Both the position numbers and the translations under genes were made by a program. DNA of 64,000 nt. Source: Branchiostoma floridae (lineage: Eukaryota; Chordata; Leptocardii; Amphioxiformes; Branchiostomatidae). The DNA is taken from contig NC_049990.1 in assembly GCF_000003815.2 (NCBI RefSeq), positions 19,511,258 to 19,575,257 on the forward strand. The letters are read 5' to 3'. The first letter of the stretch is position 1, and each line of letters begins with the position of its first letter. Under the pieces are notes generated by a model, which was given only the letters and a program-made list of their open reading frames with translations, made no database searches and was not told where the DNA came from. Positions 9,470 through 53,900 of the stretch are shown here, in pieces.

Positions 9470-10060
9470 CAAGAACCTGAAATGTGCAGGCATGCGTCTG
9501 ATGGACAATATATTGGTTTATATTCCATGTGAATTTCAATTACAGAACAAGTTTGGTTTGGAAGTTATGATTGTGCAAAGATGGCACAAAATGACATATT
9601 ATCAAAATCATGAAAATTGACCTACTTTAAAGGACAATTGCGTAGCAACAAAACAAGAACACAAACTTTACAAGCATGCATTTGATAGACAATTAATTGG
9701 TTCATCTTTCAAATAAATTCCAATAACAGAACAAGTTTGGTTTGGAACTTACAATAGTTCAAAGATAGCAAAAAATGACATTTTCTCAAAATCATGAAAA
9801 TTGACCTACTTTAAAGGACAGTTGCGTAGCAACAAAACATGAACGCAAACTTTACAAGCATGCATTTGATAGACAATATATTGGTTTATCTTTCAAATAA
9901 ATTCCAATAACAGAACAAGTTTGGTTTAGAACTTACAGTAGTTCAAAGATAGCAAAAAATGACATTTTCTCAAAATCATGAAAATTGACCCACTTTAAAG
10001 GATAATTGCGTAGCAACAAAACAAGAACCCAAACTTTGCAAGCATTCATCTAGAAGCTCT
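9470..10060 (-). repeat. Inverted ~180-bp units in the right transposon arm
   Basis: Three to four copies of the left-arm unit lie here in reverse orientation, recognised by ATAGACAATATATTGGTTTA, CAAACTTTACAAGCATGCA and CTTTAAAGGACAATTGCG. The arm has fewer units than the left one, so the arms are unequal. The centre (about 8420-9460) is single-copy and shows no coding potential. Confidence 0.75.
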
Positions 10061-10904
10061 TTAGTGGGTTATTATTTGGTGTGAATTGCAAGCGAAAAAT
10101 CTTTACACTTACGGACTTTCAGTGCTTCAAAGTTGGGCAAAATTTCAGTTTTTTCACAACGTGAAAACAGTGTATTGCATTCAGGTTGCCCGTGACCATA
10201 GATTTTACAGAAGATTAACTCTACTGCTATTTAATGCAAGTTCAGGCATTGCTCTAATCAGGACATTCTGCTTTTGTTTGTAAGTTAAAGCATTGACCAG
10301 TATTAGTGCCCTAAAGTTGGCCAATTTTCATGTTTTTTACATGCCAAAATCTGGAAAAATGGCCCATAAACTTCTTTGGCCTGTTGCCATAGCAACGAGA
10401 GGTTCTGAGCAGAAAGAAAGCTATTTTGAGGGGTTGTGTACCAAGTACTATCACTGTGCAAAATATGAGCCAAATCTATTTTTTGACCCCTGCCACCATT
10501 GTTTGACCCTTACAGACATTCGCTCTTAATAAGGTCATTCTCCATAATAAGCCTTGATTGTTTGGCGAAGGTATTTGTTTGTGGAACTCTAGTTTTTAGA
10601 TGAAAATATAGTGTGTCAACCGTTCAAGCTCAGCGTAGACACGAAAACAAACCAACTCAAATTTGATCTATCTTAAGTTAAATATACATACAGGCAGAAT
10701 ACGGAATGTGCAACACAACTTATCATTAAAATAATATAGTATGGTAATGAATTTCAAACTTAGTTTCCTGTCCAGAATAATATATATTGGTAAATATAAA
10801 TCCATGCACAAATTTACAACAACTAGAGAGATTAATACGAACTAAGTGATTATCAATATTATAAGAGCGGATTAAGAACGACAATATCTTATACCACATC
10901 TTTC

Positions 10905-25740: not shown

Positions 25741-26542
25741 TCATCACCATTGACACCACACCAACATCCAAACCAGACCCGAAGTGGGCACACGTCGGTT
25801 CGTGAAAATACCGTAAGGTTTTTGACAATGAACAGAGGTCAACAAACTGAAAAGAAACTTCATCACTCGAATGTTTGCGAGGAACGTTGGTTGTTTGCTA
25901 GTGTTGTATATGCCATACATACCTTCAATGCACATGTCTCCAATAACTTGGTTTAGTCGACAGATGCAATATATCATTAACTGCATGTGAGGAATAACTC
26001 GTGTAAGGTACTCATGTCACAATGCCCTGAAATAAACATGTTTTTGCCATGTATTGTTCACGTCCCATTTCATACGATAAAATAACTGCAAAATATAAAA
26101 CAGACATCAACTAAGGGTTTAGCCTTGTTTTGGTAAGTGGTGAGCTAAAAAGGGTGATTCAGCCCTTGCCTGTTACCGCCTGAGGCCTTATAATTAGACA
26201 ATAGTCTCTGTTGCGCCGTCGACAACTAAAATATATTTACCACTTGCCAAGAAAAAGGGCTAAGGGATATTAAAGACGCTTCTTCATTTTTCCTTCTTTT
26301 GAACATGACAAATCACATCCAATGAATGTCTGACAGATTTATGATTTTGTTTTTAGTCGGAACTGATAAACATAACCATGTTATGAGCCTTATACTGTTT
26401 CTGTTAGTCTCTTTGACACCACTCCTGCAAATTTGTACACTCTTACCTTTACCAACACTTTTTTCTTATGACCTATGCAGTTAATACTCCAACTCGTGTT
26501 GTTCGTTTTCAAGGGGCAAACTGTATTTCTTAAGGTCAAAAA
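25741..26542. other. Intergenic, upstream of gene 1
   Basis: The stretch holds a lone diverged copy of the array core block (about 26325-26370: GTCTGACAGATTTATGATT...), an outlying trace of the array. An in-frame TAA at 26531-26533 precedes the first possible Met of gene 1. I could not identify a TATA box or other promoter element with confidence. Confidence 0.5.
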
Positions 26543-26687
26543 ATGACGTCGTTTTGCAAACATGTATTGTGTTCAGGGGGTGCAGTGGGCGCTGACATGA
26601 TGACGGGTGAGTGCACACTCGGTTTCTTGGGTATGCTGTCCCTTTGGCTGATGGTGATGACTGCGACAGTGGCTGCTCAGCGGCAAG
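26543..26687 (+). CDS. Gene 1 exon 1: signal peptide
   Basis: The first Met after an in-frame stop is at 26543, but Met codons at 26597, 26600 and 26633 follow. A hydrophobic run, LGFLGMLSLWLMVMTATVAA, precedes AQRQ and looks like a signal peptide. It fits better near the N-terminus, so initiation at 26597 or 26600 is likelier than at 26543. The donor CAAG/GTAATT leaves one base that joins AG at 27678 to make Glu. Confidence 0.7.
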
Positions 26688-29034
26688 GTAATTCAATTGT
26701 AGTATACCGTAACATAAAGGCATGATATATCGTGCAATGTCCAAATTACTAGTAATTAGTTAGACATTTATCTTGTCGAGGCTGAGCAAAGTAGATAGCC
26801 ATTATTATCGCCATGAATAAGGGGACTGACGAACGTAATGTTTATGGCTATTAGTGTGTTTGTACCTGTGACTCAACATCCTGCTGATGCATTTTGTTCC
26901 ATTTTGCATATTTGTAGCTGTTGACACGTGGCACATGCTTATTTTCACTTTTGAAGTCCAATCAGTTTTTTTTGGATTCTGGGGTGAAGTGAGGTATGAA
27001 GGCGGTCATCAGGTTCGGTCATCAGGGGTACGGGTGGACATATATTTTCGTAGTTGACTTTTTTTATCAGGAATAAAACTTAGCACACGTCTTGGTCTTT
27101 GGATAGTTAAAGATTTTGCCAAGGTTAGTATCTTTTGGTTGATGAAGAAGCAGTCTACACAAACCTTTAATCAACAAGTCACGTATTGGCTATAATTTAA
27201 ACCGCCTGTAATGTAACAACTTACTCCATTCTAGCAGCTGTAAAATAAGAACCATTGGCATTAGGAGTTCAGACATTTAAAAAATGGCATCTAATCTATA
27301 GCGACACTGACTATTATACAGGTATCCTCCAAGTACCATACCATCACCCTTTTTGACGGAGGTTTCCGAACGCTTGTTGTCTTTATCTTTAGTGTATTCA
27401 CTCACCGTCTTGTTTTGACTATCATTTTGCGATTACATGTCTTTTGACGGAATATTTCAAGCTACTAGTATTAGGGGCGTCTGCCTTGAAAAAAGATTCA
27501 CTAATCCTGTTGCCCATACCTTTCAGATCTCAATCTGTGAAATTTGATAGATAAAAGATTGTGCCTCTAGTGAATTTTAAACCTCTATACTCCGAATCAT
27601 ATGAAAATGAACTTCGCCATTAATAGATGAATCAATCAGAATCTCTACAATCTTGTTGTTCTTTGTCATATTTACAGAGTGCGATGCTGGTTGGCAAGTC
27701 TTTGGAAAAAGCTGCTATAAGATGTTTGTGGAAAAGCAAAATTGGACGTATGCCCAATATGACTGTCAAAGCAAGAATGCAGACCTAGTTGCCCTAGGAA
27801 CTGCAGAGGAAAGGGTAAGGAGTATTGTTCCCCACCTAGTAGCTCACCTGATTATTTTTCAACACGGTATAGTGGGACGTTAAGTTCTAATATTAAATAT
27901 CCGATCCCGGTTATTTCAACCTCACATCAAACTTAAGGTGCACTCTCACTGTAGTTGCTTCACGCTTGCGTCACTGCGGGGTTCAAACGATACTCAATTT
28001 CAGTGATAAAGAACTAATTTTTATTCTTTTTGTGCATTTTTCGTCTTCTAAGTCATACTTTTACATATTACGCAGTATCTACCATTTAAGAAATCGGAGA
28101 AAATAACGAACAGTGACACAGTGACCGAACCCCGCAGTGACGCAAGCTGGACGCAAGTGCAGTGAGAGGGGACCTTAAGGTGGTTGATAGATATATATTT
28201 TGTCATACAACGCTATAACATGTTCAGAAGTTTTATATTTGGAACAAATTTAAAACATAGTACTAGTTTTGATCAGACTAAATAAACTATTTCATTTTCC
28301 GTTTGCAGGACTTTGTGCACTCCCTTCTTCCAGAAGGAGCAACTTGGTTAGGCTTGTCAGACAATGGAGGTCCTGGCCAATGGTTGTGGGTGGATGGGAC
28401 CAGCCTGGATGTATCCATTGCGTGAATATTTAGCCTTACACATTTTCCTGTTTTCCTGATACCTTTCAACTACAAAGTCAAAGTTATTACCATGTCATAT
28501 GAAGTGTGTAGGGTGGTACCCATTCTCGTTTCAAAAACCATTGCCCCAGAATATGTGCTAGCAGTGGAGAAATGGGCTGGTACATACAGTATCGTAGCGT
28601 CAATCTTCATACATTTACCCATAAATCATTATTAACAATCAACAGTTCACCATTTATGCATATGGTTTTTTTGGCATAGTTCGTTTTATTAAGTTACACT
28701 CTGACAAAATGCCACTGTGGTTCTAAAACATGCTGTTGTACATGAGGAGTCCAGACGTACACTCCTTTCTGACATCAACAGCTGTTGGCCACCCAAAATC
28801 AAGATCATAGTAACGCAAGGACAAAAGATACAAAACCTGGAATTTTCGCTTCAGCATTAAGGGAAGCCGCCAGGACGCCCATTATTGATCTTTACCTTCG
28901 TCTACCTGAAAGCTACCTAGAAATACTAAGTATCGTAACAAGCCATCAATATGTTCTTAAGTTATGCAGACGTAAAATGTACCGAAACACAGACAAATGC
29001 GCACGCACACACACAAAATTTAACGCACACACAA

Positions 29035-29068
<34 letters not shown>

Positions 29069-32000
29069 ACACACATACACATACACACACACTCGCAATG
29101 TAGGTAATGTAGTGATTTCATTAGTCATACCCAAAGGCCCCATTTCTTCGTTTTTTCCTTCACAGAAAGGATTGGGGTCCATACAGCATGCGTCAAGATG
29201 GAGTAGACTACAATGGTGAACACTTTGGCTACATTTGGAATGATCCCCAAAGCTCCCCACCAATCATTACCTGGCGTGCTGCCCATCCTGCCGAGACATA
29301 TTACTACATGTGCGAGCGAATCACCGGTGAGTAGGTTAATATTATGTTGTCAATTGCTTTCCTGCAAATTTCATCACCTTCATCATCAAAGCAAGGGGCA
29401 GGTGAACTCAAAGGCTATTCTTGTGATGTATAGAGACCAAAGTTTCTAGTGGGATTTCTTAGCAATGGTAGACTCGTTCAGCAGGTGCACGGGGCTATAG
29501 GAACCGACACGCACTATAATGCACGCAAATGGTTCTCGTTACCTTCAAGAAATTCTGACAGCTCTCTCTATATGGAGATCTTGGGAAAAAAAAAATCTCG
29601 AGGATGAAAGCTACATGAGCAGCTCCAGACACTATGAATGCATACATTTACATGGTCTTAGTATAAGTGTATTTATTGAATTCTGCCAGAGCAATGTCGT
29701 ATATTAAAGCAACTTTATTTTACATTTTAGCGTTTTTTTTTTAAATTGACTTCCCAAGGTTGCAAGGATAATATACACCTTTTGTGGCCAGTGGGATATC
29801 ATTTTAACATTGTACAGATATCGACCTTTGGGCATACTTGTCTTCTTGTACGTGTTTTACAAAAAAATTAATCTAACTCCTGTCATTTTCGAAATGTAGC
29901 GGGCTGCCCAGGAGGGCAGTATGAATGCTCTGATTCTGGAAAGTGCATTGGATCATGGGAATTCTGCGATGGAAAGCAGGACTGCATACGTAACGATGAC
30001 GAAAAGGAAGAAGTTTGCAGATCTTGTGAGTAAAGAACATTTTGAATTGAGCGATATTATGGAAAATATGCGCTGTGTATTTGTTAACGCAGACAGAATA
30101 TCTTATTAGTCAGCACCATGTTAAAGGGTGATGGTTGTTATGACATTTATGTTACTTAAGTAATTTTGTTTCATAGAACTTTATGTATGATTAATATGTT
30201 ATTGAAGTTAATTTGGTTTTGTTGAACTTTATATATGATTTATGTTCAAGTTCTCCTCCAGGCGATATGCTCTTACCCTGGTAAAATAAAGAATAAAGAA
30301 ACAAACAAACAAATGTTTAGGATCTAGATTTTATTGCTTAACAGTTTGAATTCAATATCGGTGTATTATATATAGGGAAATCCTATTTCTTGTCACTATT
30401 TTAAAGGTGTTGTTTTTTCGAAGAATGTTTTTCATTATTTTTCAGACAAGTGTATGCCAGTAGACTTTGCATTCTGTCGGGATATGCTCAGCTACCCCAA
30501 GTATTTCCGCCGAGGAAACGCCAGCGTGACCGAAACATCTCGATCTTACCAGCTTGCGCTGAAATTTGCGAATACATCTTGTCATCCCAATATCGCTTTA
30601 TTCTATTGCCACTTGGTATGATTTTATGTTGGATTCTTTAGGTATGGAAGTTAGGCGTATGTAAAACATGAAAATGACGCAAGCTACCCAGATAAGTGTG
30701 TTTTTCGCAAATTTTGCAAAGAAGTCTATGGCCTCCAACATTAACATTACTGCCATGGATGCCTTTTGTATTAAATTGTTGCCTTTTGTATTGAATTGTT
30801 GAATTTTCAACAAAATAAGATAAAATCCAAAAAACTAAAGTACTCACAATGAGGGTGATAAGCTCATAGTTAGTGTAAAGGATAAAGTCTGAGCTGGTAA
30901 GAGGGAAAATGAGGGAATGGTCAGAGTGTAAATGGGCTTAGCATCATGGTGGGGGGTATGTTCAGCCGACAATGTATATAATATCTATGGCCCTTCTCAT
31001 GTAGATCCTTCCTGAATGCATCGAAGATGGCATTCGAGGCAAACCACTTTGTAGCGCAACGTGCGAGGAATTGCGGCAAGAGTGTCTGCACGAGATCAGC
31101 TCTTTGTGGCTCTCCCTTACAAGAGACTTCTGCTTTGGATGGTTCCCCGACTCTGTTCGAAGTGACATATGCACACTGTTTAGGGGTAAGATCTAAATTC
31201 TTGTCTCATCATTATAGATTTAAACAAATATCTGGAACTGCCCAAACTCGTTTGTGTGAAAATGGATACCTTACTTTGGTCTGGGAGATAAAAGACTTTG
31301 TAAGACTGTTAAAACTAGAGTCCCACGACCCGATACTTTCGTCGAAACATTTTAACCTTTACAACTGGTGTAATAGTTGTGTTTGTCATTAGTCATGCAA
31401 ATGAGGTCACCATTTGCATAAATCATATTAGTTGATCATCCCCTCCAACCAAATAACCGATGTACGCAATCTATGCCAAGTAAGAATGCTTCCATCGCAT
31501 CTCTGATAATGTATGCACATGAGGTCTTCAGTGTACAATTAATGTTTAATGATGTTCAACTTAGCATTTTCTCAGTGACTATGCAAATTAGTTACTAACT
31601 TGATTGCATCGCCATACTGTCCTTGTCGGTAAAAAGCAAATGAAAATAAAAACCATTGACATCATGCATACACATGCTCGACATTATGCATCCCATGTAG
31701 AATGATGCCCGGAACAAGTCGCCATTTTGGTCTTTGTCGTCGACACTTTTACCTTACAATAGAACTTTAAAAGTAAAAGACAGGAATCATAAAGCCCGCA
31801 ATTTAGCAAGAGTGGAAAGTAATATCAATGCGTAAAGACTACCTTTTTAAGCCTCATCGTGTAAATGGACGTGTAGGAACAAGCGAGTAAATAAAACAAA
31901 TACATTTCTGTAGGACTCAATTGTTCTTTCGACAATGGCCTGTGTGACTGGAAGCAAGTAGCACCTGGAGGTGCAAGTCAACCATGGGTAGAGGTGCTGA

Positions 32001-34998
32001 CCTCTCCAAAACCAGGTAAACATATACAGACTCAATTTACAAAACAAGCTATTACATTACTGTTTTAACTTAATAACCTCATTTCTCTTTACTTTGAAAT
32101 GTTATCAAATGATTCCTTCGCTCCAGAAAGGGGGTGTTATTTTCCAATAGATATCCAATTTAGAAAGTAAAGAATGCATACTACTTCGTATCATATAAGC
32201 ATTAAGCACCCACTAGTCCCGTGCGTATCAAAAGCATTTAGTATGCTGTAGGGTTACTATTTAAATGAATCTAAGTGTGGCTTTGATAAGTTTAGTAAGC
32301 GTCAACAACAATTCTGCAAATGTCGACTGATTCATGAATGCATTATCTATTGAGTAATAACGCAATCTGGCAATCTATAAGTCTAGGAACGGTTTCACAG
32401 ACTATAAGTATGGGACTGGTTAGACAAATCATTAAAACACGATTGGATCCTTTCCGAAAATACATTATTATTTCTTGAAAGATTTCTGGAGTGTTTTTAA
32501 CAGTATCGATTCGTAACAAAGTGATGGTACTTCAGTTATATCTGGTCATGTCATTTCAGGAAAGCATATGTCATCCCGTGCTCCGTCCTCTGAACTACTA
32601 GTCAGCCCAAGGCTTTATACTGATGACAAATGCCTGAAGTTCCAGTATCGTCTGAGTGGAGATAAGAGCAGGGCTCTTCTGAACATGACGGGGTCGGATG
32701 GTGTCTCATGGACCGCCTGGTCTACCACCACCCCTACCGACTGGACCACGACTAGCATCAAAATCAAGACGGCCTTGGACTCAGTCCAGGTGACCTGTTT
32801 GTAAACTCTTTGTTAATACAACTATGCTATGACGATGGAAAAGTGATAGCAGCAGCTAAACCATTTAATTCTAAATTCTACCTCTTATACGTTTTTACAC
32901 CATTCAACACCAAATGATAGCATTTTCAACATTATTCAACTGAAATGGCATAATTCATTGAACATCGTATATGCGTGCTAAGTATACACCCCTCTGTTAC
33001 TTAACATATCAGCATCCAAAAAAATATCGCCAGTTCTTCACTGCGGCAGGCAATGGGAACTAACCTTTTATTATATGAATGTAGCTAAATTGATCACAGT
33101 TGTCGTTTCGATGCATGCCGCCACGGCTTCCAAAAAAAAAATGATTTCAGTAGGCAGAGAAAGAATATCGCAGCATCTTGCAATTGTATGTTATTACGAT
33201 AAATAAGCACTATTAACTTTTCAAGTAGTTTTAGCAAGCTCCGGTGTGCAATTCTGAGCCAGCTGCTGTGATTACTGCCATTGAATTAATAACATATGTT
33301 TAATATAATTACCTTGCTGTAGGAATCTAATTTGCAGGAGGCAAAAAATATTGGAGTGTATAATAATACTGTGAAAAAGTCAATTTTCATTGAAATATAG
33401 TATCACTACCGAAGCCGACCAGAAAATACTGTATTCTAATGCAACATCCGCTTGGCGGCTGAAAGGGATGGTACATTAAAAAAAGTTGAAAAAAACATTG
33501 CCACCAGGGTGGATTAAAGAATGCTAGGGATGAAAGTAAATAGCACAGCCAATAAAATCTTGTCAGAAACACAATTTAGCATGCATTGCAGTATACATCA
33601 TTGCACAAATGTGCGGTCAACTCTAAACATAGCAAAGTGCTTTCTAGATTAATTCATAGTTTAATTGAACTTTATCACCTAAGACTTCTTTCCGCAGGCA
33701 TTAATCAATGTTGGATGTATGACACTACATAAACACGTTTATATTACTTGCATGAAACTGTTAAGTGCTCATGAACAAGCCTTGGGATAGTTCTCTGATC
33801 CTTCTCAAGTTGAAATGAGTTAAATCTTAATTTAAATCAGTTCTAATTTAGACGAGTCAGAAAACTCACGAAAGTTCGCTTATTTAGAGCGTTTCAGAGT
33901 AATGTGTAGGATCCGTTCGGGAGTACAAGATCACCACAATGCTATTTTATAGATTTTTTTCATCTTCTTAGGTGTCAATCCAGGCATTTGTAGAGGGTGA
34001 TGGCGAATTCAGCATCGATGACATAAGCCTGACTGATGGCCCATGCGATCAAGAAGGTATTTTACACCTACTTCTTTATAATGGCACATTAAACATTGAT
34101 ATCATATGGCATATGTGTATGCATCATAAAAGTAATATTAACATTTTAATTGATTTAAAACGAATACTTCATTTGCAGGAAGATCGTATCAATAAAAGAT
34201 TTGTTCTTTCTCTCTGTAAAGATTTTAAAAAAAGAACTGTATGGGTATATACGATGCAGGGAATGTAAGTCTGCATGTTCGTGTGTTCGCATGTTTATGC
34301 ATGCATGCATATGTGTATGTTCGTGTGCATGCCTATGTTGATACAGATCTCTATTAGTGACCGATATGTCACTTTTCTTCTTGGAGTTCAAGTGATTTGT
34401 AGAGAATCATCAACTCGAGACGGAAGGATTTATAGGCTTTATAGCAATATATGATAACTGCAGTTATTCTATTAGTAGTATTTATAGAATTCTGCGATAT
34501 CCTAATAAAACAAAACTCTCTCTGAATGTTTTTTATACAAAGGGAAACCTGGCTTTCCTTGGCGAACTGTGGTGGGAGTGGTAGTTGGACTTGTTGGGGT
34601 AATCATCCTTCTGACTGCAGCCTTCCTCCTGTACAAGAAATATGGTGGTTCAAGGAGAAAGCAGGAGTAAGCCATTGGTATTTAACTACATTCTCCCTGT
34701 GTAACAAATAATATTAAACAAATCTGCTATCATTGCATTTGAGGTCACAAAACAGTCTTAAAGCGGAGTGAGTCCAATGAAGCTATCTTACTTGACATGA
34801 CTTGCTACTGTCACAAAAAATTAATCAATTCAATCTTCTCTGATCTAGAAATGACGAACCCAATGGTAAGATAGAAAACATAGTTAATGAAAGAAACGTA
34901 GCATAGCATTCTTTCATGAGAATATATTTCCTTTGATAGACATGGACGAGCTGTCGAGTTGGACAACCGTGACTGATATTGCTACCACAACGACATAG
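26543..34998 (+). CDS. Gene 1: CTLD-LDLa-Frizzled CRD-MAM single-pass receptor-like protein
   Basis: Thirteen exons join in frame: 26543-26687, 27678-27814, 28309-28421, 29166-29326, 29900-30025, 30446-30615, 31005-31185, 31914-32015, 32560-32789, 33972-34056, 34543-34666, 34849-34865 and 34940-34998. They sum to 1650 bases, exactly 549 codons plus TAG. The order is signal peptide, C-type lectin-like domain (about residues 50-183), LDLa (187-226), Frizzled CRD (229-342), MAM (346-480), membrane helix (493-514) and a 35-residue cytoplasmic tail. The four domains are extracellular adhesion or ligand-binding modules, so a cell-surface receptor role is inferred; no enzyme domain is present. All introns start GT and end AG. 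The 28421 donor and the start codon are the least certain boundaries. I recognise no orthologue by name. Confidence 0.85.
27678..29326 (+). CDS. Gene 1 exons 2-4: C-type lectin-like domain
   Basis: Three exons (27678-27814, 28309-28421, 29166-29326) encode a long-form CTLD. It opens with CDAGWQVFGKSCYKMF, continues through DCQSKNADLVAL and WLGLSDNGGPGQWLWVDGTS, and ends with WNDP and YYYMCER. The WLGL core, WND and the final Cys are typical of the family. Two usual Cys of the long-loop region are absent, and I see no EPN or QPD calcium/sugar-specificity motif. Classical calcium-dependent sugar binding is therefore unlikely; a protein ligand is plausible. The intron between exons 3 and 4 carries a CA-tailed repeat. 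Confidence 0.82.
27937..28174. mobile_element. 238-bp MITE in gene 1 intron, TTAA flanks
   Basis: Terminal inverted repeats of about 54 bases (GGTGCACTCTCACTG... and ...CAGTGAGAGGGGACC, both reaching GCTTGCGTCACTGCGGGGTTC-like sequence) lie between TTAA at 27933-27936 and TTAA at 28175-28178. No coding frame is present. The interior phrase around 28018-28075 resembles that of the elements at 5469 and 21071. Confidence 0.75.
28785..29095 (+). repeat. CA-tailed dispersed repeat in gene 1 intron
   Basis: The segment contains TTTACCTTCGTCTACCTGA and TATGTTCTTAAGTTATGC, then a long CA-rich tract (about 29000-29095). It is a relative of 10905-11150, 12250-12545 and 19505-19750. The 144-codon frame over it is Thr/His-rich repeat translation, not an exon. 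Confidence 0.55.
29900..30025 (+). CDS. Gene 1 exon 5: LDL receptor class A domain
   Basis: A single phase 1-1 exon encodes one LDLa module with six Cys: GCPGGQYEC, GKCI, FCDGKQDC and the DDEKEEVC end. The acidic residues that hold calcium in this family are mostly kept (CDG, QDC, DDE), so the module probably folds around calcium as in LDL receptors. The symmetrical exon phase is the usual state of a shuffled domain. Confidence 0.9.
30120..30312 (+). repeat. Retroposon-like 3' tail in gene 1 intron
   Basis: The sequence ends TCTTACCCTGGTAAAATAAA followed by GAATAAAGAAACAAACAAAC, a polyadenylation-like signal and short A-rich tandem tail. This resembles the 3' end of a non-LTR retroposon or SINE. 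No coding remnant is visible. Confidence 0.4.
30446..31185 (+). CDS. Gene 1 exons 6-7: Frizzled cysteine-rich domain
   Basis: Two exons (30446-30615, 31005-31185) encode about 114 residues with exactly ten Cys in the Frizzled-CRD spacing: YKCMPVDFAFC, the SYQLALKFANTSC helix region, FYCHLILPEC, PLCSATCEEL, QEC, DFC and DIC. In Frizzled, MFRP, corin and collagen XVIII this fold binds Wnt or lipid ligands. Here it follows an LDLa module, as in corin-like proteins, but no protease follows. Wnt binding is possible and not shown. Exon 6 ends in phase 0 and exon 7 in phase 1. Confidence 0.88.
31305..31720 (+). repeat. Diverged AT-rich repeat in gene 1 intron
   Basis: AAACTAGAGTCCCACGACCC followed by ATGCAAATGAGG-type phrases recalls the 1.1-kb element at 11485-12571 (ACTAGAGTTCGGCGACCTC, ATTAATTATGCAAAT). 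It is probably an old fragment of the same family. No frame or structure of note is seen. Confidence 0.35.
31914..34056 (+). CDS. Gene 1 exons 8-10: MAM domain
   Basis: Exons 31914-32015, 32560-32789 and 33972-34056 encode a compact MAM domain. It begins NCSFDNGLCDWKQ, continues through DDKCLKFQYRLSG and ends FSIDDISLTDGPC, with the four conserved Cys in order. MAM domains mediate adhesion or dimerisation in receptor phosphatases, meprins and neuropilins. At about 135 residues it is a little shorter than typical. The long intron at 32790-33971 contains nothing I can identify. Confidence 0.88.
34543..34998 (+). CDS. Gene 1 exons 11-13: membrane helix and short tail
   Basis: Exon 11 (34543-34666) gives WRT followed by a helix VVGVVVGLVGVIILLTAAFL and the stop-transfer KKYGGSRRKQ. 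The helix carries a GxxxG spacing that could support helix pairing. Exon 12 (34849-34865) is a 17-base micro-exon and exon 13 (34940-34998) ends in TTVTDIATTTT then TAG. The tail has no kinase, ITAM or NPxY motif that I see. Skipping the splice at 34667 gives an immediate TAA, so intron retention would end the protein right after KQE. Confidence 0.8.
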
Positions 34999-37267
34999 TT
35001 TTTCTCTCTCATCTGCACAGTTCTTCAGAAACAAGTTCTGGAAGAAGTCCTTAGCATGAAGCCCATTCAAAATACTTGGATCTATGCTTCAAATAGGTTA
35101 AATTCTATTCCAAACACTTGCAGCTTTACATTTGAAATTTATTCTGTTTAACATTTCATCTAAAGGAAGATGCAAAGGAGATCAATGGATGATACACCAT
35201 TAAGGTTTCGAGCATTCTTATATGTTTTAAAGAGCTTAGGATGTGTACTAATTACTTCTTTAATACAAAGGGATCATAAAACGTATACTATATGTATGAT
35301 AACACGTATCATTCGTTCACATGTTGATTTGAAGGTAAAAATTCCGGTAATAAGCCAGTCAACTTGACTTCAGAACTCTTTGCGTCAACGACTAGGAAGT
35401 TAAGCACCTTAAAAGTATCATCATCAAATACCCTAATATTTTGCGACAAAACTGGCCGAAAAAAAGACGTAAAGGACTGTTAGGACATATGCTCTGTATT
35501 TTTTTCCACATTTTTGCGGTGATAATTGCAAATTGATTACTTTGTTTCTGTAATAGAAATCTATTGACGTAATTAGGTAAAAAATAATTCTTGATTTGTG
35601 ATAATATGTGCAACAAAAAATTAGGACACGCTTTGTCCTGGCTGTAACTGTAGCTACAATTTTTGCAAATAATAACAAACTACATGATATCAAAGTCATA
35701 ATGCTTAATTAGCGCTTCAAAGAATACATATCGGGGACAATTGGAAAGTTTGCTGGGGCCAGTTTCATTACTTGGCATTGCCAGAGATTTTCATTATTAA
35801 GCCTTCACAGTATTTTCCCGATCTCCATAAAATGGTGCATTTACAGTAGATGTTTACTGACAGAACCATTGAACCTGAACTCTTTCGTATGAAAAATCAT
35901 AGGCAATTTAAAAAAAAGGATAAAAACTAGCCCCTTGGGGATGTTTAATGTTAACGATGGGAAAGAGGCGGAGTAAAAAGGCCATTGAGGGATGGCTCAG
36001 CTTTTGCAGTATAAAGACGTTGCTTTTGTCTTTGCAATCTAGTTCCGAACCACAGTGATCAGGAAGCCTTTACCTTTGATCAGGAAGCAATGGTCTGTGG
36101 TCTTTTTTGCTCTCCACAAGTTTTTCGCAGCAGCGAAGCGTAGTGACCTGGTAACCAAGCTTTGAGAAAACTGGGCACACATGTTTAGCATATAATGCCG
36201 TCGTCACATCGGTCATGATTAGATGGGGCTAGATGAGCGTGCCTGGGTGGATTGCACGTCGATCGCAGTTAAGTCGTATAAATCGCAAGTACATAAAGAA
36301 CTTTGAAGAGCTTTATTGCACGACAAGTGTACATGATACAATGTATGGCAACAACTACAAAGTACAAAATCTATAGGTATAAATAAGTCAACATATTGGG
36401 TCTAGCATGTTATTTACACTATTGGTTCTAAGGTATAACCATTCCTGAATTTGTTTGCCTACTTTTTTTTAACACAGTTAGGGTTATCGCCTCCCAGAAT
36501 GTAACATTTAATTTAGCTATCGTTAAGCGTTGCATTACGAAGAATGGATTTTGATTTTTTTCTTCAAAATTATTTACTCCTAACATATAGTATGATGCCA
36601 CTTAAGAACTTAGCACTTACCACATTTAAGGGTGACTTTGTCAGTTTTTATTAATTACACGGTGTTTATAGTTGTAAATGCACGTACTGAAGTTAACGAC
36701 CTTTACGCCTGAATGATTTTTATCACTTCATTATAAAAGCCATTAATGTCATAGTTTGGATGAACTTAACTCATTGTAATAGCTTCAGTATAATAACGGA
36801 TAATCTAGCATCTTTTTAGATATATGAATTAATGATATGTTTAATACATGCTATTGTATTAAACTAGTTAAAATATATTTAGGATGAAAAATTTGCTTGG
36901 TGGATACAAATCAATTAATGTGTCATTGGCTCCTACATATTAGAGTCATCCTTTGCAAAGTCCAAACTGTAGCAAAAGAGAAGAAACACACAGCATTATT
37001 AAAGCTTTACTACTTATGGTGTATTAATACCTAGTGCGTTTGTTTTAGTTTGTAATATGTTATGTCTTAATGGGCAGCCGCCAACAAAGCTACTGCCGTC
37101 AGATTCTAAGTATCTTATCGTCAGATTCAATAAATGCTATATTCTAAGGGTGACTAAACTGTGTTGGCCGAGTGTTCTCCTGTCTCTCTATTTACGAGTG
37201 TCTCCTCTCTGATCTATAAAAAAAATGTCTGTGGTACTGTACAATATCCAGACACAGGTGCATACCG
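34999..37267. other. Intergenic, between the 3' ends of genes 1 and 2
   Basis: No gene is seen. The stretch is AT-rich, and scattered frames of 65-88 codons lack domains or codon structure. I found no AATAAA within about 500 bases of the gene 1 stop, so its 3' end is not placed. Confidence 0.5.
36298..36395. repeat. Retroelement-like end shared with the array
   Basis: GAGCTTTATTGCACGACAAG then TGTACATGATACAATGTATG matches, with mismatches, 11270-11320 and 19860-19905 (ACTTTATTGCGAGACAACTG...). Read on the minus strand it ends in CAATAAAGCTC, like a retroposon 3' end. Confidence 0.4.
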
Positions 37268-37778
37268 CTATCCCTGGTGCTAAACACCACACACACACAT
37301 GCAGGTAAACACCCTATCCCTGGTGCTGAACACCATCCACACACAGGTAAAAACCCTGTCTCTGGTGCTGCACACCACCCACACACAGGTAAACACACTG
37401 TTCCTGGTGCTGCACAGCATCCACACACAGGTAAACACACTGTTCCTGGTGCTGAATACCACCCACACACAGGTAAACACCCTGTCCTGGTGCCGAACAC
37501 CATCCACACACAGGCAAGCACACCTGTCCCTGGTGCCAAACACTATCCACACACAGCTAAATACCCTGTCCCTGGTGCTGAACACCATCCACACATAGGC
37601 AAATACTCTGTCCCTGGTGCTAAATACCATCCACACACAGGTAAATACACTGTCCCTGGTGCCAAACACCATCCACACATAGGTAAATACCCTGTCCCTA
37701 ATGCTGAACACAGGTAATCACAGCTGTTAGTGGTGCTAAACGCCATCCACACACAGGTAAATACCCTGTCCCTGAACC
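37268..37778 (+). repeat. 42-bp minisatellite, about 12 units
   Basis: The unit is close to CACCATCCACACACAGGTAA + ACACCCTGTCCCTGGTGCTGAA. Ten units are near full length; the eleventh is shortened and the last trails off at about 37778. Because 42 is a multiple of three, several frames on both strands stay open for 100-146 codons as a 14-residue period (HTGKHPVPGAEHHP). No initiation context, splice signals or homology support translation. Confidence 0.92.
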
Positions 37779-40336: not shown

Positions 40337-43300
40337 CTAAAAGAAAAAGAAAAAAAAAAGCTTGAGAGATATCGATCAAGTTTAGTTCACTGAAAAGCTA
40401 CAATTCCAATGGTCGTGGCAAGAGAAGACGCTATGTACAGTACAGTAATTACTGGTTCGTTCGAAGATCTTCGAATACGATTCAATCTGTACATCTGGAT
40501 ATAAACGGAGACTAACTTCCAGAAGTTTCAAGTGACGACCATTACTCTTTTTCAGTATCAGTAGAGTGAACTGGTAGAACCTGACAGGACGCTGTTGTCA
40601 ACATGGATGTCTAACCTTCATATATAAACGTATACCAGTCCGTTGTACCGGATAAATTTTTCTAGCTCTTTCCCGGATCCACAAGCACAAAGGACAATGG
40701 ACCACGGCTTAGTATATTGTCATAGGGACTGCGATCCTTTACGGTAGCTTGCATGTAGGGTAAGCGACACAGCCGGGATCAAACTCACGGCTTCTAGCTA
40801 GTTCCAAATGCGGGCCCGCTAGCCTATGCATGTTTATACTACAATGGACTACACACCCTACCTTCAATCCGTCAACTGAGAGATTGGCGACGCCGTTCAC
40901 AGCGATTGGTGCACTTGGAGCGGGCGCCACGTGCTCGTCTTGTGCCGCATCTTCTTTGGAAAGCTTGCCGTCATCAAATCCGCCCTCCATATCGGGTGAA
41001 GACAGAGCAAGCTTCTCGGGCAAAGCTTCTATTTCCACGACGTTTTCGGGTTGAGCTTTGGTCAGGTCTAGGAACCCACCATCGGCACCTTCTTCAAGCC
41101 TTAGACCTTTGTGCAAGAAAGTTTTGGAACATTTTGAAATATTCTAAGTATCTAAAATCAAAAACTTTTGTTCCAAACGGTTACATGTTGTGTAGTTTTA
41201 TCTGCTACAATCATAAATAGTGTTGAAGATTGGCTTATGTCTTTTTGCTTGTGTACATGTATATTTTAAGCGTAACATGAAAGTTTATCTGTGTTGGTAG
41301 AAGTCATTCTTGAATAAGTTTAACTGTGGGCGTCATAGACTTCCTGCAACTTATGACCCACTGCTCACTGAGTCACGTGTTCTATTTGCATAACATGACG
41401 TCACGGCAGAATTGGATCGTTCATTCCTGGACAAAGAATAGTGCTGTTCAGTCGAAAATTTGGTAGAGTCCAATTTTTGTGTTGGATATTACAGTCGAGC
41501 TCGTCCAAGTATGTTTAAAGCGTTTGACGTCAAAAGAAAATAAACTGCACGGACTATTTTGAAACACATAAAAGAATTAAAGTATGTAAGCACTTACCTG
41601 TGTTGTAGGGAAGGGATTCGCCCATGCCATATACTGGATTCTCCTGCGTCTCCAAGTCTTTGAGTCGGACGTTTTGTCCTGGTAGCTTGCGCTGCTGTCT
41701 GCGGTAGTATATGTAGCCACCTAGCGAGATGGCACCTAAAAGCAGCAAGGCCACGATGACACCAACTGCCACAGCTGCGGTATTGGTTCCGTCTTTCTGT
41801 GGTACTGACCCTATGTGATTAATGATAAAAGATTCATCGATTATTTTTAGATTCTGTTTATTTGAACGACTACATTACATTGGAGATCACTGTCTAGCAC
41901 TGAAAAGGGACGGGGGATGACACAGGTTATCTATCACCTATGATCCATTACTGCAGTCACGTGGCTTCAACGTCACGTTCTTGAAGCTGCATTATACCGG
42001 TCCATTCTGTGAACAAGTCTGAAAACTTGAGGAAGTCTAAGCCACTCCTAGTGTTGGTAAAGTAATGCTTATCAAATCTACCAACACCAATTAATTTTCC
42101 TGCTTATTTATCACTGTTACTGTTAGTACAATGTGAATTAAGTGTATACGAAGGTGCGAATTATCTTCCATTAAAGCGCGTCACCAAACAGCTGTACAGT
42201 AGTTTTGTATTCCAGAATAACCTTATGAAACTCACCACAGCCTCCATCTATTTCCACGGTTCCGCTTGGACATTCATACTTCAAAGCCTTTGCCGTGAAT
42301 GAGTTTTGATCTGCCGGGTAGGTCTGCCCATCTACATTTACGGCAACGTTCCCTGACGTCACCTCCATCCTGATCTCATCTACAACATCCTGTACTTTGG
42401 CCTGAGCTTTGCTGATGCTGTCCTCAACGTTTCCGTCCGACGTGTCCGGAGTAGCCTTGACCTCAATGTCCACGTCCAAACCGTTGCTGGCTCGTTTGAC
42501 CCTGTCTGACCAGATTCTGCTTTCTCCGACTCCGACCACATCTTTCTTGACCAAATGCATCACTACGTCATCGTTGTTACCCACTGTCAATGATGAAGCA
42601 ATGTCTTTCTCTTCGAGACCTAATTCTCGCTTCTTTCTATATGCTTCCTTATATTGTAGGATGGATTCTTTAGCCTCATTCATCAATGTTATTTTAGCCG
42701 AAGGCTTACGACTGTGACTATCTTTTGACATTGCTGCCAACAGTTGGAGAACACCAACGTGTTCTGGTGCTCTTCGCTTTCGTGTACTGCTGTCAGAACA
42801 TGACACTGCTATTTGATCAGCATTGCACAAGTCAACGTTAGTTTGCAAAGCTGTTTGGCAGATTCCTTGCCGTCGAAAGTTGTTGATGAGACTTATCCTT
42901 GCTGAGCGTAGCGTTGAGACGTCATTGGTACAAGGGACGTTTGGAATGTTGAAGGACACGGGGATGGAAACTGCATCCGGTGTTTCAGCTCCTTGACAGA
43001 TATTGATAAAATATATAATGATTAATATATAGAATGAGTAGTAAAATGCAACATTGAGGAATATTACTATATGCTACCATACTCACATCTAGTCATTTTA
43101 ATGTGATATGTGCATGTGGTACATCAGAATCTGTAATGTATGATTGGTATGATATTCACTTACACACTATATGTACAAATGTAAATACTGTAGGATATGA
43201 TAAATCTTTATTAAGTAGACGCAACCAAAGTCCAATTTTACTACCCAATACACACATGTCGTCAGCAGATTAGCCTACTTACAAGTACATGTATTTCAAT

Positions 43301-44896
43301 GAACAAACATGTTGTGATGATTAAATGCATCACTATTAATTCCATGGTCTAAACATTCGTTGATGTATATGATGCCTGTCTGTACGCAATATGAAATATA
43401 AAATATATTACTAGATACATGTCATGACACCAGTGTAAGTGTAAGTACATCTATTGAACAGATCTTACTTGCACAGGCGTACTCCGTAGTTATGTTCCAG
43501 TTGCCATCTGGTAGACATGTGATGGTCCTGGCGGTTGGTCTGTAGTTAGGCCGACAGACGACATAGCACTTCATGACGTTTGCTGTGACTGGACAGCGGC
43601 CGAATTCACCGTTAGTGACCGGCGGTAGGGTGTCCTTCGTGCAGGACGTGGCTGAAAATGGTTCACAGATATTCAGTTTTAATATAAACTTAGTGGTAGA
43701 AATGTCCCTTTGGCTTAATTGATTGCCCGGTTTTAATGGTAGTTTATTTTCGTCTGTTTGGATCGCATTCAATACGCTTTGGGAAAGTTTATGATCGAAC
43801 AGCAGGGCTTGACGAACTCAGCCTGTACTGAGCTGACCTCCAAACGGGGGCTTTTGATTTGAGCCACGCGTGAAGTCACACGTCGAGGCCGCTTATTAAC
43901 TAATTTAATCTGCGCTCAAATGCTACCACCTGTTAAACCTGTAAACTCTGATTCTACTCTCGGGGTCAGCACATCTCGGATTGGAATTCAATGTTTTGAG
44001 AGCGGACGTAAAATGGGGTCCAATGTCCTTGTGCTTATCATATTTTGTTCCTGTACAGTTGTTTATATTGAAGGGATACTAGATTATAAGTGTACCTCGT
44101 ACTGGTGATGCAACTGTTGTTGTTCTTGCTTGGGTTGTAACTGCAGGTGTTGCTGTGGAAATCATAAAATATTTGGTTATTTTCTAAATCTTCATTTGTA
44201 AGTAGGAGTAGAAGTCATCTTTCCACTTGGAGAGATGATGGTGACAATCTTGAATTAGGTCCTTACCAGCATCTTGTATAGCTTTCCTAGCGTGGCATCC
44301 ACGGGCCACAGTATAGACATATAAATGTACAAAAGTTCAAAACTTTCATTTGTAGTGATATGAGTACTCATAATCATTATGAATATTACCGTAGTAACTT
44401 GTACCACATATGTAATGTTTCAAAGTCATGTAACGGTGGCTCATGCTAATATTTCTGCTTTCTTGGTTTCCTCAAACCCTATCTGCAAGGAACTTCTCCA
44501 TTTTGAAACATTGCATGAAGAAGGAACCTAAACCAGCCGCCTTACTTTTCGGTACATTGGCAGGGTTGATGCAGGTTAAACCGTCTGGCTTCAACTGATG
44601 ACCCTCTGCGCAGGCGCAGACTTTACGGTCCGTGGTTGTCGGCAGGCACAACTCGTTACAGCCGCCATTTTGAAGATCACATGGACCTGTAAATACATAT
44701 TATTATTTAAAAAACGCATACTCTTAAATATTTTTTCTGTATTCGTATCGGTTTTATACCAGTTACGTTGATCCTCTGCATGAGGAGTCCTCTTATAAGA
44801 GTAGATATGTCGGAGGGAAAAATATAGTACCTTTTTACCTTCACCAAAAATGTTCTTTTTTCGGCGTGTGTGTGTGCGTGCGTTACGGTGCGTGTG

Positions 44897-47900: not shown

Positions 47901-50900
47901 ATTTTGCTTGTTTTTATATATAATTATTTGTGAATTTTAGGGTGGTCCCTTCAGTAGTTAAACTCAGTTTCATGATGTTGAAAGAATCAACTTTTTTAAA
48001 ATAAAAGGTGTTTCCGATATATGTATATCTTCTCATGCACAGAATAGGTTCATATATATTTCGAGGTGGTTTATATTCGCGGTGACCACTTTGCCTCCAA
48101 CTGAAAGCTGTGGTTTCCATTATTGTATAGTATGTGGCTATAGCGCTACCACGAACCTAAAGCCACCGCCAATATGACATCTTTTCCCTACCCCGATAAG
48201 AAATCGCTGCGATCTTAAGGGCAATTAAAGTAGTAGATATGTTTGCGGTATTAGACTTACATGTAATATGTTATGCATGATTCATGATAATCATATATAT
48301 TTGCATTAATCACTATTATTATTGTTATTAGCAGTATGGAGCAATATAGTTTCTGCATTTTCATTTGCATAGCGAGGTACGAAAATTATTTTAAGATCAG
48401 CCGGCTTGAAGAGGAAAAAAAGGTTTGGCTTATGCTGTTGTTACCATGTCATCACACTAACACTTTGTCTCTTAAAAACTGATATACGTACTTTCCACAC
48501 AAAATAATTTGATAAGCATTTACATTTGCATGGCTAAGTAAGGCATGTCTTATTGTGATCAATTTGCTTGAAGAGGGGGACTTCTCGCCTCATCATATTG
48601 TGATTACCATGTCATTTCACTAACACTTTGTAGAGGTTGCTACAAAGAGTGACATACTTACTTTGCACACACGTCTTCTGATCTTCCGCCAGGTTGTAGT
48701 CAGGTAGACAGAGACACTTGTGTCCACTTTGATCCCCGACACAGGTGTGCTGACAGCCGCCATTGTTAACCTGGCAGTCAGCTGTTTATAAAAAGAAAAG
48801 AAACAAAATGACGGTTTGTCTGTAACAATGCTAATATTAGTAAGATATGACATTTAAGGATAGTGAAATCCTATTAAACATTGCTTATTTATTACTGTCA
48901 ACTGTCTCCCGAGACGACAAGATCCAAAGAGATTTATGTAAATAATACAATATAATATTAGGAAAATAAGATTGCTAATCAACGGATCGCTGTCTCAAAC
49001 TTCAGATACTATTCAACCGTTCTATCTATTTCTTTCGCCAAGAAGATACTGGTTGCGTTGTGCTATGATGCAATGGTTGTGCGTGTATGTGTGCATAACT
49101 CATTGATAATTTGATGATAGATGTTCATGATATTTGGTAGGTATGTAGGTGTGGCGAAGACGCAGACAAATTTTGACAATGCCAATGTGCGTCGTAACTG
49201 CTTCCTATTACGTTACAGTTGAGCTTGTATGTTTTGTTTTTTTTCTTCCGTTTTTGAGGCTACCAACTTCAATTTGCTGAAGATTTTTGTAGCCTATATA
49301 GGAAAGTCGTGTAAAGTGTCTTTCCCAAAGGCACAAGACCGGTGACACGTCGGGGTTTGAACTCAGGACCTTCTGGACCTGAGTCAAACGTGCTGACGAT
49401 TGTGCCACGCGGCCCCACTTTTTGTTGTAATATAGCGATAGTCGCATAAGTATTATTACATTACAGGTGTATTACATTACAGTTCGCATTACAGATGCAA
49501 TACGAGAGCTGATCTCATAGACATGCTGACTATCTTATTGACGAAAAGTACATTTGAGATTACGATCATAAAAACGTAACATTTACACAACATTTTCAAG
49601 ATTTCAAATACATATTAGATATGGCTCACATTGTCCACTTGGCTGTCTGCTCTCGTGGTAGAACTCTACCCCCAACACCCTATTGACAGACCCGGCACCG
49701 TAGGCTAGGATGTTCCGTGAGTTGTGGATGAAGTTGATGGTACTGTCAGACCAATCAGTGGCCATTATCTCTTCCTGCAGTAGAAGTGAAATCAAAGCAA
49801 TCAGATTAAGTCCATGTCAACGTTGTAGCCAGCCTGAAATCATTTTCAGTCCCCTTGATTTTGAATGGGAATCCTATCGAGCACCGAAGGCATGGCCTGA
49901 CGTTGCGCGTCATTTCTAGGGCGTCTGGGTCCCAAAAAAGTTTTGAATCAAGACCCTCTGAAACACTATTTCCTGTATTTTGAGGTGCAAATTTTGCTTG
50001 TAGACTAAGATGTTCAATGGCATCTGTTTTGGTGAAGAAAAACACATGGGTTTCAGTTGTTTTTTTACTATTTGGCTGTCAATAGTTCGCAGGTCAATAT
50101 ATAATAAAACAAAATAGATATTCATCAGGTACTGGGAACCGTTTTGAAAAAAAAAAGTTGCATAGTTTTCCAGAATATGCACATCGCTTTTGCATTTTTG
50201 GAATTAAGTGACTGAGGTATAGTTTTTGATGATACGGGTACTAAGATTCATTGTACGCTGTAGAGGTACAAACAATACCTGTGTTGTGTTCGTTCGCGCT
50301 TTATCTCTTTTTAATGAATGAAATTTTATTTGTAAGTTCATTTCTGAAGGCTCATACAAGTAGGCAGTTAGACACCTAGGATGCAGACATGGAACAATGG
50401 ACAGTTAATCGGCATTACCGCTACAAAAGGCAAAACGAGTAATAACAAAATGTTGCCATATCTAGACAAATTGCGTTTTAATTCTTTGCAAGCAGAGTAT
50501 GCAGCCAATTAACACGGTCAAATGTTTGTACTTTGACTAAGATGGTTTACTTACACCGTCAAAAGTGATGTCGTAGAAATGTGTCCCGGACAGAGAGTAA
50601 AACTCTTCCCGATTGCCGCCATCAAAGTCACATGAAGAGATGGTGTCCAACTCGGTGTCGGCAAAATACAATCTGTAGGAAAACATCAAAATTGATTATA
50701 CAATGATTAACGTAAAAGCCGAACCACCTGACATTCGCACAACCCAAACTTTGGCTTCTCTAAGAGACTCTTAAGGTAACAGAAAGGAACGAAACGAATG
50801 GACTCAAATCATGTNNNNNNNNNNNNNNNNNNNNNNNNNNNNNNNNNNNNNNNNNNNNNNNNNNNNNNNNNNNNNNNNNNNNNNNNNNNNNNNNNNNNNN

Positions 50901-53900
50901 NNNNNNNNNNNNNNATACTTATGATCGTACTAATCAAGGTTTGCAGTTTACGCCTTTGCGTATAATTTAACAAGATTAGTTGTAACAATTAAAAACAAAA
51001 ACTAGTTTTGCTAATTTTAGTTTATATGACACAGGCAGAAATGCATTATATAAGATGCATCCTAATCAATTGTTAACACTAAGAGTAACAAACGTACCCT
51101 GCTGTTGGGTCCACGGTGATACCTCTTGGTTTATCCAGACCTGTTTCAGAGATGATGTGACTGTTACCGTTGCTGCTGTCTGAGCTATATGAGATCATGA
51201 CTATCCTATTGTAGTTGAAGTCGGTGTAGTAGAGATTTTGGTTGACCCAATCGGTAGCGAGAACCTCTGCTCCAGTCGAAATCTCAGTCTTCAGTGCTGT
51301 TACCTTTCCAGTCCTGACATTAACCTAAAAGGGAAAGAATATGGATTGCAAAAGTTACAGATGAATATCGGTCATACGCTCGTATATCCGTTACTTTTTT
51401 CCGTGCTGTTGGAAAATTGCCACGGTAAAATATGATTATCCCTACATTACTTTATCTACAGATATGAGTACTATAAACAAGTAGCCTACTGACAATGTTG
51501 AGATTACAATATTGAACATTGTTTGTTATATTTTAATATTTATAGAAAGATCTTCCACGTTTGTTGAAGACTCCGACAGGTGTCTGAATAGATCTCTTGC
51601 CATTGACGGCGGCCATTTTGAATTTCCTGTGATCATGCACCAAAACGAGGCTGGAGTTGGTTCTACCTACTTATTAGCCTATATTGCGGTATGTGTATGC
51701 CATCTTCGGTGTTGAAGTTTAGAACTTCTCACAAATAGGTATATATGACGATTTTGCAGTAAAGATCAAGATTTACCTGTTGTATTTCCTTCAGTCCGAC
51801 ATCAATCCAGAAAACAAGACCCTGACGTATGTCGTAGTCAAGGGACACAACGATTGACGGAGACTTTGCAGCCAGCAGGTTGGTGACCGTGACGGTTTGT
51901 TGTGCTAGCGCTCTAATGCTGCTGCTGTTCCCTTCAAACATACGGACCACTGTCGTGCCTCCCTCCAAAAGACTGATCCAAAGGTAGCTCGGGGCCTTTA
52001 TTTCTGCGGCGAAAAGAAACAATGACGCTATTTATTGAACATATGAACTTGGCAAATCTACATAGAATTCGTAATAGGCTTTTAGAAGTACGAATTCTTG
52101 ACTAGATGTAATGCGTCTTGTCCAAGATGACTTGCGTCAACTGTCCACCACTGTTGACGCCTTGAAGCGCGACCAAGACGACATGCGCCAGTTGTCTAAA
52201 GATGAAAGTAATGAATAAACAAATGGATTTGCAAGAGAGAATTGTGTTCAAGTTGACTGGCGAACGATTATTGTATCTGCTACTTTTCCATGTAAATAAA
52301 ATTCTTCCAAACTCCATTAGGTACTTGAGGCCGAGTACTTACAATATTTTAGAAGACAATGAATCAATTTTCATCAGGGCTCATCACCCTACTATGAGCC
52401 GGGACGGGGGCAGATACCGACTTCTAACAACTTTTGACCCCCTCTGCTATGTCACAATTCCGAAAGGTCACCTGTTCTGAGCAATTATATGTTCCTTAGC
52501 TAAAGAAGAAAAGAGGCCCGGTTAAATTTTTGTTTATTTTACTCTTTTTAGTTATCATATGTTAATGTTATAATCAAATCCTTTTACATTGTAAAAAAAA
52601 AAAAAAATATCAGACTTACCAGGAGGAGCACACGTGGTGTTATCGCTCTGTAGGACGAAGTATGCTCTACAGATGCAAGTTCTTCCTCCGGGGCGAGCTA
52701 GACACATGTCCATGCAACCGCTATCTGTGCAAGCTAATGTGTTCAAAGAAGGTAATAAAGTTTATAATGTATTTTTCGTATCGAATAATAGAGCATTGTA
52801 GTGATGGACAAGACTTTCTGAAGTCCAACCGCTAGTTTAAGATTCAGTATTTTTTGGTTGATGAAATGCCTGTCTACTTTGTGTTAAAATCATACTGACA
52901 GTTAAATCTTATGAATGACCTATGTCAACATTGCATTATCCATGTTTCTGTTTCCGAATTTTTCTTCCTATGATTCATCATTGTTAGATTGTACAAGGAC
53001 AGCAATCCTTTATTAGATTCAATGGGCTCCTCACCGTTCGTAACGTCGGTCCGTAAGCCAGCCCCATACATGGCTATGCCTCTTAGATTCGAGAAACCGT
53101 CGGCAAGAATTCGGTTAGACCCCTGGCTCTCTTGTGATTTTGCGTTTCTGTGGTAAAATAAAACTTATTATGGTAAAAACGCCATTGCATTTTGTTTGAT
53201 AAAATTAACCATAGCAATCAGAGATATCAGAAAAGAAAATACTATGCAAGTTCTAAACGGACTTCAAAAGGATATTTGTGTATAAGAGTATTTTTACGTG
53301 ACGTCATCGCTAAGTCCACCATGCTGGTGTCCTTATTTTCATATCAGTGAATAAAAGCTCACAAATTTCCATATCTAAGTTCCTACTGCTCATAGAAGAT
53401 CATGACGAGAATATTTAAAGATAGAATATAAAAGTGTTTCAGCTACTTTATATTCGACATGCAAATTGGACACCAATATGGCGAACAGCGGCTATCTGCT
53501 TCTTTAGTGAAACAAAAAGTGGAAACCGCGGGATTAATGTACTCACATTCCTATGAAGTCGGACCGGCTGGTCCAAAACAAGTCATGGACATGGAGGCTG
53601 AGACCGAAGAAACGAGTGTTGGAACGGATGACCAAGGTTCGCCGATTGAACCCGTACAGGTCCGAGCTCTGAATGTTGTGTGCCGCTAAATCACCCGATA
53701 AAAGGGGCGTCCTATGGAAAAAATATAATATCATGGGACATCTCGAAGTGTTGTCCATATGTAAAAAAGGAATATCGGAAAACCGACGTTAAACATAGAG
53801 ACTATATCAAAATTTGAAACCAAACTCACGACAGAGACTTTCACCCTAACATAATAACATGCTAGCCTCCACCATGCCTTCCTACAGGCTTCTACGCTTA

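Follow-up and report, generated by a model that had tools for sequence, protein, structure and literature searches.

The window examined here, a 64,000-nucleotide stretch of the Branchiostoma floridae genome (C12:19511258-19575257), carries at positions 26543-34998 of its plus strand what is probably a real and functional gene in a new arrangement of known parts. The model is that of a surface protein with four ligand-type modules, a modular build with phase-1 borders and selection acting on its stalk. The reading that we favour, with a probability of about 0.55 on sequence evidence, is of one functional lancelet gene that would encode a lineage-specific, type I, single-pass, ligand-binding co-receptor and that arose by phase-1 exon shuffling. 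It was not expected that three of its parts, namely LDLa, the Frizzled cysteine-rich domain (CRD, here Fz) and MAM, move as one unit of six exons, hereafter the cassette.

Gene model and domain composition

Rebuilding the region from raw DNA yielded 13 exons (1650 nt) in a single frame of 549 residues plus a stop codon, with GT-AG splice sites at 12 of 12 introns, which reproduces the 13 phase-consistent exons and the 549-residue frame of the initial annotation. The predicted protein begins with a signal peptide, followed by a C-type lectin-like domain (CTLD), LDLa, Fz, MAM, a transmembrane (TM) helix and a short tail. Intron phases run 1, 0, 2, 1, 1, 0, 1, 1, 0, 1, 2, 1, and all five introns that separate modules (signal peptide/CTLD, CTLD/LDLa, LDLa/Fz, Fz/MAM and MAM/TM) are in phase 1. 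The frame goes beyond chance because exons 5-10 match the cassette of a second locus exon for exon with a dN/dS of 0.26, and because alignments to solved structures in the PDB cross both splice junctions of the CTLD and the G+C content is about 0.50 in exons versus 0.36 in introns. The exons, all on the plus strand, are as follows, with the evidence for each in brackets.

Exon 1, 26543..26687, +: signal peptide, starting at Met1 or Met19/20 and ending in phase 1 (frame, hydropathy)
Exon 2, 27678..27814, +: CTLD part 1, phase in 1, out 0 (frame, Pfam, PDB alignments)
Exon 3, 28309..28421, +: CTLD part 2 with the WLGL and WLWVDG stretch, phase in 0, out 2 (frame, Pfam, PDB)
Exon 4, 29166..29326, +: CTLD part 3, divergent, lacking the inner Cys pair and EPN/QPD and retaining WND and the last Cys, phase in 2, out 1 (frame, PDB)
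Exon 5, 29900..30025, +: LDLa with six Cys, cassette exon 1 of 6, phase in 1, out 1 (frame, Pfam)
Exon 6, 30446..30615, +: first half of Fz, five residues shorter than in the C4 copies, phase in 1, out 0 (frame, Pfam, cassette comparison)
Exon 7, 31005..31185, +: second half of Fz, phase in 0, out 1 (frame, cassette comparison)
Exon 8, 31914..32015, +: MAM part 1, phase in 1, out 1 (frame, Pfam, cassette comparison)
Exon 9, 32560..32789, +: MAM part 2, phase in 1, out 0 (frame, Pfam, cassette comparison)
Exon 10, 33972..34056, +: MAM part 3, cassette exon 6 of 6, phase in 0, out 1 (frame, Pfam, cassette comparison)
Exon 11, 34543..34666, +: TM helix and basic stop-transfer sequence (frame, hydropathy)
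Exon 12, 34849..34865, +: putative tail, 17 nt (splice sites and phase)
Exon 13, 34940..34998, +: putative acidic, Thr-rich tail and stop (splice site and phase)

When the spliced 549-residue protein was scanned with Pfam, scores above the cut-off were obtained for MAM (PF00629, 8.9e-12, four Cys), Lectin_C (PF00059, 2e-11, 45 bits versus a cut-off of 22.6, covering residues 68-142 and positions 2-72 of the 107 in the profile) and the Frizzled CRD (PF01392, 7.9e-11, ten Cys), and no trypsin domain was found. Cysteine positions confirm the earlier statement that all six LDLa, ten Fz and four MAM cysteines are retained. In hydropathy, two stretches exceed a Kyte-Doolittle mean of 1.4 over 19 residues: one at residues 23-46, assigned to the signal peptide, and one at residues 486-519, the single predicted TM, which lies after MAM and agrees with the membrane anchor first proposed. 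Among solved structures, the nearest relatives of the CTLD are the phospholipase A2 receptor, DC-SIGNR and NKG2D, while Fz matches FZD10, FZD6 and FZD8 (best 4.4e-6).

Ca-dependent sugar-binding C-type lectins carry an EPN or QPD motif together with WND. Within residues 49-183 of the CTLD, WND is present and neither EPN nor QPD was found, which makes canonical Ca-dependent sugar binding by this domain unlikely. The second intron holds a 60-nt inverted repeat (27925-27984 and 28127-28186, 83% complementary) that resembles a small mobile element.

The LDLa-Fz-MAM cassette and its copies

The genome searched was the 513 Mb assembly that contains the window. With the whole protein as query (79 of 1011 candidates scored), strong off-locus matches to LDLa, Fz and MAM were found at C4:10.19-10.21 Mb and on C290. 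The minus strand of C4:10179001-10239900 (368 N) carries EGF, Fz, SRCR, LDLa and trypsin exons, followed by an extended series of Fz exons that holds five LDLa-Fz-MAM blocks (A1-A3, B1 and B2), with EGF, thyroglobulin-1, NIDO and AMOP exons beyond; these exons are mechanical calls from one or several genes, with Pfam run on samples and AMOP below its cut-off. Among the matches listed for this region, 23 were to Fz, mostly as part-domain exons, and clusters of Fz also occur on C3.

The closest fully read copy, B2, was used for comparison, the A copies being read partly for MAM-2 and MAM-3. The window gene and B2 share the same exon order (LDLa, Fz-a, Fz-b, MAM-1, MAM-2, MAM-3) and the same phases (1, 1, 0, 1, 1, 0, 1), with exon lengths of 126/170/181/102/230/85 nt in the window versus 126/185/181/102/242/88 nt in B2. 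Identity extends over 170 of 294 aligned residues (58%), 20 of 20 cysteines are kept, and dN is 0.26 versus a dS of 1.01 (dN/dS 0.26), which shows that the cassette exons are coding and that purifying selection acts on them. A blastn comparison of the two loci gave four matches, the limits of each lying no more than 25 nt from those of a single exon, and left the LDLa and MAM-1 exons unmatched at 0.01; since the matches keep to single exons, the introns are unlike. What is homologous is the cassette as a whole, which is old and subject to purifying selection, and it is virtually certain that the window gene has it in common with other loci.

Using B2 as query, a second Fz exon of the cassette type was found at 12 or more places, of which five are on C4, three on C290, two on C3, one on C413 and one in the window, a lower bound given that 129 of 181 candidates were scored. 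The unplaced contig C290 (26.5 kb) may represent another haplotype, because over the region used for the tree its B copy and B2 are 99% identical. In that tree, which is unrooted, spans LDLa to MAM-1 and has 10 rows from the 12 cassettes known (the two without a row are A-type copies on C290, and the C413 row is without LDLa), the window copy and the B copies split from the A copies with support of 100/100. MAM-3 of C290 was left out of both the tree and the dN/dS estimate. Some copies are irregular: the first Fz exon of B1 has TT at its donor site, and copy A5 is missing the first LDLa cysteine. The mosaic multi-Fz loci on C4, C3, C290 and C413 resemble the window gene in domain order and, for B2, in all six exons and their phases; however, the cassette there sits amid further Fz exons, and on C4 it also lies near SRCR, trypsin, EGF, thyroglobulin-1, NIDO and AMOP exons. 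Within the window itself, no paralogous exons of the gene were found above chance-level matches. The gene offers a compact setting in which LDLa-Fz-MAM binding could be probed without long mosaic loci.

As far as searched, a CTLD precedes the cassette in the window gene only. A whole-model search of 60.9 kb of C4, at E values up to 1, gave no match at CTLD residues, and the CTLD alone, run against 38 loci (276 kb, with the window's five excluded and the C3, C290 and C413 loci covered in part), gave three matches with E values of 1.1-2.5, none of them credible at a cassette locus. One of these, an 18-residue match on C4 (L029), was taken as chance; the other two lie on C17 (L019), where one was confirmed by Pfam as the CTLD of a separate locus. 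At that locus (C17:1.69 Mb; L019 1135-4448, minus strand), Fz (6.8e-14), a CTLD (9.1e-5), LDLa (9.1e-7) and a weak Fz (0.0057) follow in this order, so that CTLD, LDLa and Fz are found together in at least one other place. The C17 locus resembles the window gene in that all three share a strand and lie within some 3.3 kb, but differs in their order and in that no MAM was found there. The best relatives of the CTLD in the genome are about 34% identical (4.1e-13, on C6, with 150 of 847 candidates scored), and it is therefore not a recent copy of any relative scored.

Alternative readings, origin and proposed function

A single real gene at this position, as in the initial annotation, is highly probable. 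Exons 1-4 end without a stop, they join LDLa at an exact phase-1 junction, and the model contains a single signal peptide and a single TM; the last three features make one gene far the better reading. It is correspondingly improbable that two genes adjoin here, a CTLD gene in exons 1-4 and an LDLa-Fz-MAM-TM gene in exons 5-13. Such a division could draw on an ATTAAA at 29703 in the intron between CTLD and LDLa, on AATAAA at 30285 and 30292 in the intron between LDLa and Fz, and on cassettes found without a CTLD elsewhere in the genome; however, these motifs are common locally (many occur in 26000-36500), the intron between exons 4 and 5 measures 573 nt, and none of its three ATG frames of at least 20 residues resembles a signal peptide. 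Signal-peptide-like frames were likewise absent from the 10 ATG frames in introns 4, 5 and 7, and four were found in intron 10, directly before the TM exon. Even less credence, indeed next to none, can be given to the idea that a copy of the C4 mosaic gene has decayed here or been placed here by an assembly error. The cassette is clearly kin to C4, yet the window gene has no stops, every splice site is intact, dN/dS is 0.26, the signal peptide, CTLD and TM are its own, and the sole N run of the window lies at 50815-50914.

There is an appreciable, though lesser, chance that the protein terminates after exon 11, which would leave it a tail of some 12 residues, and that exons 12 and 13 arose by chance, a variant that leaves the single co-receptor gene otherwise unchanged. 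Unspliced reading past exon 11 meets a TAA directly after KQE (34668-34670), an ATTAAA follows at 34713, 43 nt beyond that stop, and neither AATAAA nor ATTAAA occurs between the exon 13 stop and 36500; for these reasons exons 12 and 13 may be wrong. Against this, the GTAAGC donor fits, as do both acceptors and the phases, and exon 13 has a G+C content of 0.49. At the other end, Met1 lies 18 residues ahead of MMTGEC, and Met19/20 is a fair alternative start because of an acceptor-like AG at 26575-26576.

Several observations count against the co-receptor gene as modelled. The first 18 residues are without support, and exons 12 and 13 (25 residues) were placed by splice sites and phase, have no homology support and are followed by no poly(A)-type motif, as described above. 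LDLa stays below its Pfam cut-off of 24.1 bits, both in the whole protein (PF00057, 0.038, 14.6 bits) and when scanned alone (6.8e-4, 20.2 bits), with its six cysteines in place. The final 40 residues of the CTLD fall outside the Pfam match, and this domain has four cysteines (50, 61, 78 and 181) rather than six, so that both members of the inner disulphide pair (C2-C3) of a classical CTLD are absent. The MAM part alone found no convincing match in the PDB (best 0.009, a hyaluronate lyase module; RPTP-kappa at 0.089). In addition, the window row forms a long branch (1.01) in the 10-row cassette tree.

The exon shuffling claimed in the initial annotation is upheld by the phase-1 borders and by the spread of the cassette across contigs, but assembly domain by domain at this locus is not, given that LDLa-Fz-MAM forms a cassette of six exons, that the second Fz exon of this cassette occurs at 11 or more other places, and that CTLD, LDLa and Fz also co-occur on C17. 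The gene may have arisen when one B-type cassette was combined with exons for a CTLD, a signal peptide and a TM, or it may itself be the source of the cassette. More speculatively, LDLa-Fz-MAM could be a supra-domain, inherited as one exon unit and copied tandemly in mosaic multi-Fz genes and across chromosomes, with the window gene as its stand-alone user or donor; if so, the three domains would form one fixed ligand-binding device with a swappable head, which here is the CTLD. Lancelets are reported as the fastest, or extreme, exon shufflers among animals (PMC4284660), and the window gene is a good example of this rather than an exception, offering a clean case in which a block of three domains is shuffled.

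For the favoured co-receptor gene, a mechanism can be outlined, although a role as a co-receptor or in adhesion is itself proposed only tentatively from the domains. The CTLD would form the membrane-distal head, with a binding surface of the protein type or of some other non-canonical kind. LDLa and Fz, paired and stabilised by Ca, would bind a ligand that is a protein or carries a lipid, and the membrane-near MAM would support self-association. As modelled, the tail contains no NPxY, YxxPhi, dileucine, ITIM or PDZ motif, which suggests that the protein would hand its ligand to a partner or retain it at the surface. It may thus be a ligand-capturing co-receptor or, alternatively, an adhesion or scavenger receptor.

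The initial annotation raises the possibility of a Wnt, lipid or glycoprotein receptor. A more specific role as a Wnt receptor, co-receptor or decoy, in which Fz would bind the Wnt lipid and the protein would tune Wnt signalling, appears unlikely from the domain comparisons. All ten Fz cysteines are present and Frizzled CRDs are the best PDB matches, but these matches are weak (4.4e-6 at best), the domain is only distant kin of the Frizzleds, the tail is without a recognised signalling motif, and relative to the C4 copies there is a five-residue deletion directly ahead of the Pro of FPN, a conserved Fz stretch. Fz-type CRDs outside the Frizzleds differ in predicted Wnt binding (PMC6747125). 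For example, those of MuSK, MFRP, ROR and corin are predicted there to bind some Wnts and that of COL18A1 is cited as sequestering Wnt3a, yet no high-affinity Wnt is predicted for COL18A1 (PMC6747125).

No protein with the order CTLD-LDLa-Fz-MAM was found in the literature searched, which included PMC4284660, PMC3927612, PMC12373286 and PMC6747125 but not most subscription journals. By its domains and anchor, the protein can be set beside several known membrane proteins. Corin, the atrial natriuretic peptide-converting enzyme, is membrane-bound and combines LDLa with Frizzled CRDs, but has a type II anchor, two Fz, several LDLa, SRCR and trypsin, whereas the window gene encodes a type I protein with CTLD and MAM and no protease. 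MFRP similarly has LDLa and Fz on a membrane anchor, but it carries CUB domains and is of type II, and neither MFRP nor corin is known to have a CTLD or MAM. The N-terminal-side anchor of corin and MFRP is not seen here, the TM lying within residues 486-519, after MAM. MALRD1-type MAM/LDLa proteins and enteropeptidase, which are also membrane proteins, combine MAM with LDLa but are not known to have Fz or a CTLD.

Neighbouring sequences

Upstream of the gene, five 300-nt pieces each occur in three copies within 330-25074, mostly at 93-100% identity with one copy at 81%, and spacings of 12.4-12.7 and 7.5-8.8 kb mark a segmental duplication in tandem, which stops shortly before the gene and includes none of its exons. 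A 708-nt inverted repeat (6735-7442 and 9822-10529) has arms that are 99% complementary and lie 2379 nt apart.

Across the window, 20 of the 37 other frames of at least 100 residues were scanned with Pfam. Downstream of the gene, on the minus strand, the frames of the neighbour at 41557-43817 include a sushi-like piece (0.0015, below the cut-off) and a TM-like stretch, and those at 56645-58818 include an LDL-receptor class B repeat (1.9e-8) and an EGF-like/FXa-inhibition domain (2.5e-8), perhaps parts of an LRP-like gene. Between the gene and these frames, a tandem repeat made up of nine or more 42-bp units (37229-37739) contains two minus-strand matches to the mir-2060 precursor (Rfam RF03662; 37303-37394 and 37471-37562; 80 and 76.8 bits), and the mir-2060 family, which is of Branchiostoma origin, may be part of a minisatellite.

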